From Ilyonectria destructans (Eukaryota; Ascomycota; Sordariomycetes; Hypocreales; Nectriaceae): 64,000 nucleotides of DNA. Positions 37,604 through 43,749 of the stretch are shown piece after piece; position 1 is the stretch's first letter, and each line of letters begins with the position of its first letter. The position numbers and the translations under genes were made by a program. Where the stretch lies: assembly GCA_020740775.1 (NCBI GenBank), contig JAHEWK010000003.1:1426001-1490000 (forward strand). Direction: 5' to 3'. Below the pieces are notes generated by a model, which saw only the letters and a list, made by a program, of their open reading frames with translations, did not search any database and was not told where the DNA came from.

Positions 37604-39396
37604 ATGGTATGTCCCCCTGTGCATCCTGGAGCAACTGTTATGTGGTTGATTTGCCCAGAGGAACCAATACGCTAACATGTCTCGTCTTCTTCCACCCCGC
37701 CAGTCTTTCCAACCAACCCAGATTTTCGAAGAGGGCACCACCGAGGAGAAGGGTGAGAATGCCCGTCTCTCCGCCTTTGTTGGCGCCATCGCCGTGGGCG
37801 ATCTCGTCAAGAGCACCCTCGGTCCCAAGGGAATGGACAAGATCCTGCAGTCCGCGTATGTCCGCCGTATCCTAGCTCGCCGCGACCCCCCTTTTTGACA
37901 ACGTGCTAGCTCGACCGCCGAAATCATGGTAACAAACGATGGTGCCACCATCCTCAAATCGATCGCCCTCGACAACGCCGCCGCAAAGGTCCTGGTCAAC
38001 ATTTCCAAGGTTCAGGATGACGAAGTCGGTGACGGCACCACCTCCGTCACCGTTCTGGCCGCCGAGCTGCTGCGAGAGGCCGAGAAGCTGGTTGACAAGA
38101 AGATTCACCCCCAGACCATTATCGAGGGTTACAGAATAGCGAGCCGTGCTGCCCTGAAGGCGCTGGAAGAGACGGCGGTTGACCACAGCAAGAGCCCCGA
38201 GGCTTTCCGAAATGACCTCCTCGCCATTGCACGGACGACGCTCAGCTCCAAGGTCCTGGCCCAGGACCGAGACCAGTTTGCCGAGCTCGCTTGCGATGCC
38301 GTGCTTCGATTGAAGTCTTCCGATCTCACCCACATTCAGATTATCAAGAAGGCCGGAGGAAAGCTCAGCGACTCCTACCTCGACGAGGGATTCATCCTGG
38401 ACAAGAAGATCGGTGTGAACCAGCCCAAGCGGTTGGAGAAGGCAAAGATTCTGGTGGCCAACACTTCCATGGACACCGACAAGGTCAAGATTTTTGGAGC
38501 CCGAGTCAAGGTCACCGGCACAAGCAAGCTCGCAGATTTGGAGCGGGCGGAGAAGGATAAGATGAAGGCCAAGGTCGAGAAGATCAAGTCCCACGGCATC
38601 AACTGCTTCATTAACCGCCAGTTGATCTACAACTGGCCCGAGCAACTGTTCACCGATGCCGGCATCATGTCGATCGAGCACGCCGACTTCGATGGTATTG
38701 AGCGCCTGGCCCTTGTCACTGGCGGAGAGATTGCCTCGACGTTCGACCACCCCGACCAGGTCAAGCTGGGTCACTGTGATTTGATTGAGGAGGTTATCAT
38801 TGGTGAGGACACCCTTATCAAGTTCTCCGGTGTTTCTGGTGGTGAGGCTTGCACGATCGTGCTTCGTGGTGCTACCGAACAGCTTCTCGATGAGGCAGAG
38901 CGAAGCTTGCACGACGCTCTGGCTGTTCTGTCCCAGACTATCAAGGAGCCCCGTACCACCCTCGGCGGTGGCTGTGCTGAGATGGTCATGGCCAAGGCCG
39001 TGGAGGGAGCCGCCACTCGCGTGGAGGGCAAGAAGCAAATGGCTGTGTCTAGCTTCGCCATTGCTTTGAGGCAACTGCCTACCATTCTGGCCGACAACGC
39101 CGGCCTGGACTCTGGCGACCTTGTCGCCCGCTTGCGAAAAGCCATTTACGATGGCCTTACCACCTATGGCCTGGACCTGATGACCCCCGGCGGTGGCATC
39201 ACGGATATGCGGGACCTTGGTGTTATTGAGAGTTACAAGTTGAAGAAGGCTGTTGTTTCGTCCGCCAGCGAGGCCGCAGAGGTGAGAACCCATTCTATCG
39301 TCTTATGTTTATGAGAAACTGACTGACATTATCTAGCTCCTTCTTCGAGTCGATGACATCATCCGGGCAGCGCCTCGTAGACGGGAACGAATGTGA
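37604..39396 (+). CDS. CCT2: Chaperonin TCP-1 subunit beta (CCT2)
   Basis: Subunit of the cytosolic chaperonin that folds actin and tubulin. Four exons: 37604-37606 (only the start codon), 37704-37855, 37910-39281 and 39337-39396, giving 528 residues. I chose the ATG at 37604 because it is followed directly by GTATGT and the join yields [12 protein letters not shown], the family N-terminus. The ATG at 37677 would add an unrelated leader. ATP-site motifs [20 protein letters not shown] and [14 protein letters not shown] are present, and TLGGGCAEM and [10 protein letters not shown] flank the C-terminal equatorial domain. The last exon encodes [14 protein letters not shown]. Confidence 0.93.
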
Positions 39397-40139: not shown

Positions 40140-43100
40140 ATGCCTCAACGCAAGATCTCCGACATGTTCGCCTCCCAGGGACCGTCGCCAAGGCGCTCTC
40201 AGCCCGATCTTCCGCCAAATACCAACAATCGCAAGGCCGGTGGCAGCCAAGTCATTGCTTCCAACGAGGATAAACAAGGTCCTGGGTCGAGTGACAAGAA
40301 TCCTTCACCACGGAAAAGACATCAGGGCAGCGGGCACGCAACTGCCGGGTCACCTCTGAACACACAAAACACACCATCTGCCGCTTCTTTCCTCTCGATT
40401 CCTTCGACGCCACCCTCCGAGGCTATTTCGTCGCAGAAAGGAGCTACGAAGAACATCAAGCGGGTCAACGAGAATGTGCCAGAAACACCTCAGCCGAATC
40501 GACGTGGAGGAAACCCTCGTGCCGCAAGTGGGAGAACACCAACAAAGCCCATCGAGCTCCCTCCAGGCACATCCCCCCACACCCCAATCGAGCTCTCGTC
40601 TGGGGATGACAGTTCAGACTCAGACTGCATGCTCCAGAGCGTCCAGCCAACTCCCACCAAGAAACGCAAGCGGAACACGGCCTCAACTCCAAAGGCCACA
40701 CCCACCAAGCGACCGAAGGCCAAGGAAGCTGTCCCCAAAACCCCGACACGCGCCGCAGCGAAGCAGAAGCCGACCAGCAAACAGAAACAAGCTGTCCAGA
40801 AACCAGCTGCCAAGAAACCAGTTGCGCAGACCCCAGTTGCGCAGACACCAAATACCCAAAAGCCGGCTGCCCAGACACCAACTACCCAGAAACAAGCTGT
40901 TCAAAAACCAGCTGCTAAGAAACCAACTACCCAGAAAACACCTGCCCGAAAACCGGCTTCGCAAGCACCAGCTACTCAGCCACCGGCGGCCCAAAAACCA
41001 GCTGCGCAGACACCAGCTACCCAGAAACCAACCGCCCAGAAGGCTCGGGCAGCATCCTTGCCCCCTCGTCCGAACCCACCTACTGGCTCTTCGACCCCTG
41101 CTGCTGCAAACACCATCGGCCCTCTGCTGAAGAATCGGTTTGCTATCAAAGCGAAATTTCTCAAAGGGACTAAACTTCAGGCCAGTTCGGCCCAAGTCAC
41201 ATCCAAGAAGGATGATCCCGATTGCTTCATCGAAAAGGTTCAGCCCTCCCCCGCCCCGAAGCGAAGTCTTCCAAGCAAGGCAAAGAAACCACCACCAAAG
41301 AAGAGACGAGTCGGTAATTCCAACGCTTCAGTTGCTGTCGCTGATAACCCGCCAAGAGAAGATGATGATTCGGATTGTGAGATCGTCAAGGTTATCAGGA
41401 CCCCCCAGAAACGAGCTTCATCCGTCACTTTTATCCACGACGAGAATGACGCGGATGGTGAAGATTCCGAAGAAGAGCCCAATGATCGCAAGAAGGCACT
41501 CTGCTCGAACAGAGCTGCACCTGCCCGATTGCAACAATCCTCATCCAACCGAGCGCCCGCTAAGGCCAACCCTGTCACACCCAGCCCTGTCAAACCTGTC
41601 CCTGCCAAGCCCGACTTCACAAACACACCCGCACCGGGCATCACTTGCGACAGACCCATGGCCGATATGGTCCATGGCATTTTGCCTGAATATTTGGCTG
41701 CACCAGCGGGTAATGTTGAGGGGAGAGATGTGTCCGTGGCCGTTGCTCCCGTGGCTTAGGACGCCAGGGATTCTTCGAGAAGCAACCGGACTGCCGCCCG
41801 CTCATACGTTGAAACTCGAGGCGACGACTCGGCCGGGGCCAACACCTCGTCGGGCAAAGCGAAGTTGTGCCAAGTAGGGGGATCGCCACCATCTGCTCTA
41901 GACAGCTCTATAAAATCACCCACATTTGATGATCGTCCCGCACCATGCAAGTTGCCTAGGGAAGAGCCATCAGACCTTGCCAAAGAGGACTTCTTTGCTA
42001 TTTTTGGGTTGACCAGCAAGCAGGAAGCGTTGAGCCAAGATGTGCCTGAATCTGAAGAGGAAGATTGCATTGTCAAGAAAGAACCATCGCCTGACCTGAG
42101 AGGAGCTAAGAGAGAACCAGCAACTGACATCAGCGATGAAGAATCCCTCCCTCTTTTCAACAGGATCTGGAAGAAAGAAGCTTTGAGCCAAGACGTGTCC
42201 GAACCCGAAGAGGAAAATCGGGAGATCAAGCCAGACCCAGATTCCTACTCGGATCATTCGTCCCCACTCTCCTATTGTGGCTCTGGTGAGAGCTCCGGTG
42301 ACGACTCCGACAACAGCTGTAATGTCAAATCGTCACCCCCGCCCTCTCACCAGCCTCCGACTTCGAGCGCAAGTTTCGGAAGCCCCTTTGGTTACATGAA
42401 TCGTTCCGAATCTCGGGTTGATTCTCACTTTGAGCTCTCGGACGACCTTGGTACCGAGGAGAATTGCTCAATGCCATCCCCCAAAAACCTGCCAAGCAGC
42501 CGAAGCATGGCGTCAAGTGGCTTGAAGAGTATCTTGAAAGCCCCAAAAACATGGCCTTGTCAGCCTCGAAAGTGGAAAAACGGCCGAGGCAACCCGTTTT
42601 CATCAATCAGTGTCTCGCCTTTGGCTGAACATGCTGTGTCTTCGCCCAGCGAGAGAATACAGCACACGAAGAAGCAAGCCAAGTCAATCAGAGCTTCAGC
42701 TTCCAAGAAGGTGGCCCTAGTGCCTGGGAAGAAGTTCACTACTACCCTGAAACGTCTTGCTTCAAACGTGAAGAAGAGCAAGCCCAAAGCGATGGGAACC
42801 TTTGACGCACTCTGGAGCCCTCGTCGCAAGCTCAGTGCCAAGAAGATACATTCTACTCCTGCCAACAGAGGATGGATCTACAAGAGTAAGTACTCACCAT
42901 GTTTGATCCGAGCAAGTTTTCCCACTGACTGCCCGGGTAGAGAACAGTTTGACACCATTGAAATCAGTCCCACACGACACAAATTCCGACGAGGCAGATG
43001 AAACGGATGGAGAGACCAGCAGTATGGACATGGACACCCCTTCGAAGATCAGGATCAAGGTCGACCCCACGGTTCCAGATCCAAAGGAGCAGACGAAGCT

Positions 43101-43749
43101 CACAGAGGCTACTAAGAGCCTTAATAGTCCCGGAGAACAACACAACCGGATGGTAGACAACATATCTGGTTTCGATGTCCGGGAGTTCAAGCCAGCCGTG
43201 ATTCGAGATGGAGTCTCAGAGCATGCGATCAAGCCTACAATTGCTCGCCTTGAGAAGAAGATAGCCTCTGGGGAAGTCTTTGCCAACCAAGGCCAGGACA
43301 GTGTGTCGCGATACAAATGGACGACGGATTAGAAACTCCCGGTTGCCCGTTCAGATGTGACCTCACGAGCGATGGAAGCAGAACTCCTGCACCGAGGCAT
43401 CAAGACGGACAGGCAGTACGGCAATTTTTGGTACAACCTCATGATGAGGTACTCTCATCTGGCGGGATCGACTGTGCCGTTGTTTACGATGAAGAAGCAG
43501 TCCCTGGATGACTTTGTCGAGGAGAGCATGACAAACCGACGAGACCTGGCGCCAAAGTCGAAGAACTGTGACGAAAACCCAGCCAAACCAGAAGGGGTTG
43601 AAGCACTCAAGCTCTGGGGCGCTGGGGAGACGGACAACGAGAGTTCTTCATCAGGGTCCGACAACGAGGAAGACCTGGTTGCGAAGATGCACGCCGTGAC
43701 GAAGAAGCAGAGGGTTCGGGACGGAGCGGGCAGCAGTCTTGGTAGATGA
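40140..43749 (+). CDS. Large low-complexity nuclear-type protein interrupted by two in-frame UAG codons
   Basis: Family not recognised. Exon 1 is 40140-42885 and exon 2 is 42941-43749, joined at a good GTAAGT intron. The frame is open for 1185 codons except for TAG at 41757-41759 (codon 540) and TAG at 43330-43332 (codon 1046). Without decoding of the first UAG the product is 539 residues. The N-terminus QRKISDMF faintly resembles a PCNA-binding motif. Residues 220-302 are a Pro/Thr/Gln/Lys 5-residue repeat. Lys/Arg nuclear signals (KKRKR, PPKKRRVG) occur. Short acidic-hydrophobic motifs recur (DCFIEKV, DCEIVKV, DCIVKKEP). A KxEALSQDV block is duplicated about 50 residues apart (about residues 624 and 680). 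The C-terminal part (RQYGNFWYNLMMRYSHLA) looks globular. It may be one gene with readthrough or RNA editing, a recent pseudogene, or a gene spliced in a way I do not see. Confidence 0.6.
40797..41045 (+). repeat. In-frame Pro/Thr/Gln/Lys minisatellite
   Basis: Imperfect 15-nt units encode variants of KPAAQ and TPTTQ, running through codons 220-302 of the large low-complexity gene. Confidence 0.75.
41748..41769 (+). other. Predicted hairpin around first in-frame UAG
   Basis: CCC (41748-41750) pairs with GGG (41767-41769), a single G is bulged, and TGGC (41752-41755) pairs with GCCA (41763-41766). The 7-nt loop TTAGGAC (41756-41762) holds the stop codon, with its A third in the loop and a T before it, as in tRNA anticodon loops. 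Pairing is read directly. Any function is inference. Confidence 0.5.

Follow-up and report, generated by a model that had tools for sequence, protein, structure and literature searches.

We propose that a gene of Ilyonectria destructans depends on A-to-I editing of its mRNA at two premature UAG codons, each of which would be converted into UGG (Trp), for the synthesis of its full protein. On comparative grounds we consider this explanation probable, because it accounts together for the stops shared with relatives, the frames kept after them, the Trp found at the second site and the context of both codons. The first stop is probably the older of the two, being present in Ilyonectria and probably also in Neonectria and Dactylonectria. 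The second appears to be younger and to belong to Ilyonectria.

Gene structure and protein features

Analysis of open reading frames in the window, namely the whole stretch of 64,000 nucleotides under study, places 1184 codons, one intron of 55 nt and two in-frame UAG codons in a single gene on the forward strand, which has no other internal stop. From the ATG at 40140, the first coding piece (40140-41756, 539 codons) is present in the protein database as P0025, a protein of 539 aa from the same genome, and leads to stop 1, a TAG at codon 540 (41757-41759). A second piece (41760-42885) is followed by the intron (42886-42940), and a third (42941-43329) encodes the first part of a conserved C-terminal domain (RDGVSEHAIKPT). 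Stop 2, a TAG at codon 1046 where orthologs have Trp (43330-43332), lies 506 codons from stop 1, and after it the fourth piece (43333-43746) encodes the second part of the domain (HRGIKTDRQYGNFWYNL...), up to the final TGA at 43747-43749. The intron reads GTAAGT...TAG, with a CTGAC branch-like site 16 nt before its end, and its splice junction, between YK and KNSLTPLK, agrees with that of an independent protein model, P0035. The ORF check and this splice site confirm the gene as the earlier note had drawn it, that is, with two in-frame UAG codons, an in-phase intron and a continuous frame. Its assignment to a 'stop-loss' class was mistaken, since the stops are internal and the class would be premature-stop correction (PSC).

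In the six frames of the window, a single stop separates two open stretches, each 110 codons long or longer, at 22 places (9 TGA, 9 TAA and 4 TAG), and among these the TAG at 41757 has the longest shorter side, of 413 codons. The gene is located on contig C23 of a genome of 71.67 Mb in 74 contigs, in which the sole match of piece 2, and likewise of piece 4, is the piece itself. A TCP-1 chaperonin gene adjoins it upstream (37911-39281, forward strand), and the Fusarium models P0004 and P0016 join the chaperonin domain, PF00118, and the present protein in one model, so that this neighbourhood is conserved. Parts of the gene are covered by the public models P0032, P0034, P0035, P0028, P0029 and P0042, whose termini fall at the stops or beyond them.

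Residues 3-10 of the protein, QRKISDMF (40146-40169, forward strand), correspond to QPKISDFF and QSKIVDFF in Fusarium orthologs, and 19 of the 50 fetched proteins, the remainder of which includes partial models, begin with the pattern MxQxxI..(M/F)F. We take this start to resemble a PIP box, and we assume that the acidic SDCxI motifs that follow it are perhaps SUMO-binding. The C-terminal domain is helical by prediction and gave no clear match; a zinc finger, also looked for in this protein, was not found. A function close to PCNA or chromatin can only be guessed at. Repeats of the KPAAQTP type, at about 40790-41040, vary in copy number between close relatives, namely P0026 (509 aa) and P0027 (614 aa), as compared with 539 aa here.

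Relatives on either side of the stops

Relatives were recovered with three protein searches, each scoring about 8000 candidates that share most words, with 13, 21 and 21 matches listed; they were seen as proteins (cluster representatives), and the sharing of stops was judged at the protein level. The names among the matches listed are Fusarium or Neocosmospora, Neonectria, Dactylonectria, Ilyonectria and one Stachybotrys, all of which belong to the Hypocreales. The closest named protein among them is P0035, from Ilyonectria sp. MPI-CAGE-AT-0026, with 93% identity.

With respect to stop 2, P0035 (360 aa) and P0050 (102 aa) terminate exactly at this codon, with the residues ...SRYKWTTD, and P0042 (125 aa) starts shortly past it and reaches the end of the gene with the frame kept and 119 of 125 residues identical. 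The Dactylonectria proteins P0032 and P0034 cross the site with Trp. The ortholog comparison at 43330 that the earlier note had suggested gives Trp in 30 of 34 orthologs, those of Dactylonectria and Fusarium included, and gaps in four (P0013, P0047, P0048 and P0049). For this count 36 of the 50 fetched proteins were tried, two of which (P0019 and P0040) lack the anchor motif; P0035, P0042 and P0050 were aligned beside the set, and the 11 proteins outside it are N-terminal or shorter models, or end differently (P0030 and P0031). Since TGG to TAG already represents 8 of the 41 G:C-to-A:T changes that could create a nonsense codon downstream of stop 1, Trp alone is weak evidence.

As for stop 1, the search with the N-terminal piece recovered P0026 and P0027, which terminate at the same residue as the window gene (...VAPVA) and are 87% identical to piece 1 (436 of 499 and 465 of 534 aligned residues, respectively). 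Two Neonectria proteins, from N. punicea (598 aa) and N. magnoliae (579 aa), with 46% identity, end in the alignment column of stop 1, in a first alignment that used bare protein ends, a setup favouring a shared end column; the column was still shared when the row of the window gene ran on past stop 1. Because the flanks of stop 1 are poorly conserved, it is possible that the truncations of Neonectria and Ilyonectria are separate. Fusarium orthologs continue through this region, where a residue-by-residue alignment was not achievable.

The presence of stop 1 in Dactylonectria is suggested by where its models start, given that P0032 (D. macrodidyma, 630 aa) and P0034 (D. estremocensis, 639 aa) both begin after it. 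Their initial Met occupies the same alignment column, which is Gly in the window gene, and the initial Met of P0035 aligns to Val. Among the matches listed, absence from which says little, there is no downstream half from Neonectria and no N-terminal half from Dactylonectria. The first in-frame ATG after stop 1 is at 42396, and the sequence ahead of it, at 41925-42392, has 42-45% identity to Dactylonectria. BLAST of the region from stop 1 to 42396 against the two Dactylonectria proteins gave 159 and 163 columns, with 45% and 42% identity and E values of 3e-31 and 3e-27. Conservation ahead of 42396 is more readily explained by translation that continues past stop 1 than by initiation at a new AUG.

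Constraint after the stops

Differences between the window gene and its relatives after stop 2 tend to avoid conserved sites. They affect 5 of 56 conserved and 23 of 82 variable sites with respect to P0032 (p 0.005), and 6 of 56 and 23 of 82 with respect to P0034 (p 0.011); the comparison with P0042, with 1 of 53 and 5 of 72, was not significant (p 0.19). The same avoidance is seen before stop 2 (p 0.0003 against P0032 and 0.004 against P0034). Relative rates after stop 2 were obtained from ten comparisons, using five outgroups, two Dactylonectria proteins and 127-138 sites: changes unique to the window gene range from 1 to 8 and those unique to Dactylonectria from 5 to 14, and the former exceed the latter in none of the ten. 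Over the 44-47 sites immediately ahead of stop 2, the window gene has more unique changes in three of ten comparisons, none of them significant. Identity to relatives reaches 93-97% in the later pieces, as against 87% for piece 1, these figures coming from different rows and perhaps from different species. As judged from these protein comparisons, the frame after both stops is still constrained as protein.

Sequence and hairpin context

In both UAG codons the A is preceded by U (-1) and followed by G at +1, with A at +3 (UUAGGA and UUAGAA). In F. graminearum the bases described as favoured around the edited A are U at -1 and a purine at +1 and +3, and the preferences of A34 editing are reported to hold for fungal mRNA editing as well (PMC11156358).

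Stop 1 is predicted to lie in a possible hairpin (41747-41770, forward strand) in which UCCC-G-UGGC and GCCA-GGGA enclose a 7-nt loop, UUAGGAC. The A of the UAG is the third base of this loop, after U, an arrangement that presumably places it where position 34 sits in the anticodon loop of a tRNA. The probability of this A being in a loop is 1.00 with flanks of 15 and 20 nt and 0.10 with 30 nt, and the minimum-energy fold has the 7-nt loop at flanks of 12, 15, 20, 25 and 60 nt, being absent at 30 and 40; 30 nt is the flank length given for the F. graminearum study (PMC4817773). For stop 2, a possible hairpin (43322-43345, forward strand) has an 8-nt loop, UUAGAAAC, closed by GGA/UCC, with the A again as third loop base. 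Its probability of being in the loop is 0.92-0.95 with flanks of 15, 20 and 30 nt, and the loop is predicted at flanks of 12 to 40 nt (larger at 12) and lost at 60.

Loops of this sort are common. In the control on both strands, the A falls in a hairpin loop in 587 of 1029, 481 of 1028 and 352 of 1027 TAGs at 15, 20 and 30 nt, respectively, so that the loop alone says little. The mean loop probability at 30 nt is 0.34 for 250 sampled TAGs of the forward strand, 32% of which exceed 0.5, and 0.27 for the seven other TAGs inside the gene. The geometry is rarer. At 15 nt, stop 1 is one of 5 TAGs out of 1029 that have the A in third place of a 7-nt loop closed by a stem of at least 4, and both stops belong to the 17 of 1029 with the A in third place of a 7-8-nt loop and a stem of at least 3, both classes having been picked after the two loops were seen. 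At 30 nt the two classes hold 3 and 9 of 1027 TAGs. These controls weaken the structural argument for editing a little.

A PUK1-like gene and the editing machinery

The same genome yielded 137 kinase matches, of which three places were fetched, selected for UAG. One of them, on contig C1 near 2897369, is a PUK1-like kinase whose frame has TAGTAG in place of the expected DWWS and reads YDGRCD, two stops and then SIGIILYECLYG. We take DWWS to be the motif of kinase subdomain IX. A third in-frame TAG lies 36 codons upstream, between DLVG and RNQHGNRMA, and an intron scan gave no candidate there; these stops lie in L013:2762-2875 (about 2897261-2897374 of C1 in G000). Over 270 codons of this frame (L013:2261 to 3070) there are three UAG and zero TAA or TGA, and the loop probabilities of the two A of TAGTAG are 1.00 and 0.59-0.63. 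PUK1 of F. graminearum has been reported to carry tandem UAG codons in kinase subdomain IX that are edited in perithecia, and its orthologs in N. crassa and F. verticillioides to have one or the other UAG (PMC4817773). By sequence, then, this genome contains a counterpart resembling a gene whose dependence on editing is known, a positive control that the third UAG strengthens a little.

Ame1 is described as a member of the DUF726 family (PMC11087585), genes of which were found at three loci (C3:2269130, C1:3838609 and C34:1653109). Two of six DUF726 matches contain one UAG, which may fall within an intron. Ten matches to OTT_1508-type deaminases (OLD family) occur in the genome, the best at C56:1354361, and none of the ten is on the contig of the window.

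Alternative explanations

The gene could have split at stop 1 in the lineage of Neonectria, Ilyonectria and Dactylonectria, stop 2 being a separate case of editing or of loss of the last 138 codons. Such a fission is in line with the D. macrodidyma and D. estremocensis models, whose initial Met, past stop 1, falls in one alignment column, and with the two Neonectria N-terminal models, which stand alone. However, starts are not shared when the window gene is considered, where the Met of Dactylonectria is replaced by Gly and that of P0035 by Val, and the frame lacks an ATG until 42396, yet is conserved with Dactylonectria before it. Fission would also leave unexplained a second stop inside a conserved domain, and we regard it as unlikely. 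Decay, in which the downstream part is functionless and the stops are plain nonsense mutations, has in its favour that the stops exist and that the known models are truncated. Against it, the stops are shared between species, the 644 codons after stop 1 contain no frameshift and no further stop save stop 2, the later pieces are more similar to their relatives than piece 1 is, with the reservation about different rows given above, and there is no acceleration past stop 2. We find decay improbable, and for the same reasons, namely stops common to relatives and a frame constrained after them, the two recent nonsense mutations entertained by the earlier note are disfavoured.

Programmed translational readthrough of UAG would likewise leave conserved frames after conserved stops. 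Leaky contexts are of the kind UGA CUA and UAG CAR YYA, which the present ones, UAG-GAC and UAG-AAA, do not resemble, so that they lend no support to readthrough, an option of the earlier note; nor does readthrough predict a UAG at a Trp site, and we give it very little credence. Removal of the stops by alternative introns, finally, has a precedent in FgBUD14 (PMC11156358), and GCUUAG and GAUUAG look like 3' splice sites. Nonetheless, a scan for in-phase introns with a full donor score found none over stop 1 and two candidates over stop 2, both of which lack a branch-like site, and an intron at stop 2 would delete residues conserved in orthologs, which makes this the explanation that we are least inclined to accept. 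The editing idea itself, as it stood in the earlier note, is stripped of its 'stop-loss' label and of readthrough, and draws strong indirect support from the shared stops, the Trp at site 2, the constraint, the context and the PUK1-like TAGTAG.

A proposed role for editing and its implications

Under premature-stop correction, mRNA without editing would give the N-terminal protein of 539 residues, with the PIP-box-like start and the acidic SDC motifs and lacking the C-terminal domain. If stop 1 alone were edited, the product would have 1045 residues, including part of this domain, and with both stops edited it would have 1184. The enzyme would most likely be the tRNA deaminase Tad2-Tad3 with its cofactor Ame1, as in F. 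graminearum. The stops, the frame, the sharing with relatives at the protein level, the Trp at site 2, the constraint and the context are observed; the editing, its enzyme, the stage at which it would occur and what each of the three products would do are inferred. It is tempting to speculate, although we lean against relying on it, that the two codons form a two-step gate, with an old UAG, kept across genera, in a mimic of an anticodon loop and a young UAG in the C-terminal domain, where the extent of editing would set the ratio of short, middle and full forms of a PCNA-binding-like protein.

This gene may be compared with PUK1 and about 70 other PSC-edited genes reported from F. graminearum (PMC4817773; PMC11156358). 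Like them, it has an internal UAG followed by a conserved frame, U at -1 and a possible hairpin loop, would have Trp after editing, as proposed here, and is cut by gene finders; unlike them, it is so far a candidate, has two stops of apparently different age and encodes a different protein. With CHE1 of F. graminearum, as portrayed in PMC11169179, it shares a premature stop common to related species, a short product without C-terminal domain, and models from relatives with the same kinds of annotation error, namely truncations and downstream starts; CHE1, however, is a zinc-finger factor edited in hyphae, and the present protein has no zinc finger that we could find. In zao-1 and zao-2 of Neurospora crassa, described together with OLD deaminases, a UAG gate is corrected by A-to-I editing (PMC12754623), and the gate and the preference for a hairpin loop and U at -1 are similar to what we propose. 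The OLD and ZAO genes are neighbours in that account (PMC12754623), in contrast with the contig of the window, on which none of the ten OTT_1508-type deaminase matches lies.

The public models from Ilyonectria, Dactylonectria and Neonectria, which split this gene into pieces, should be taken as a warning. In the literature considered here, restorative editing of stops has been described mainly from Fusarium and Neurospora, and the present gene lies outside both genera. If our explanation is true, two stops of different age that are shared with relatives would point to a long persistence of such stops and to the possibility of adding them one at a time.
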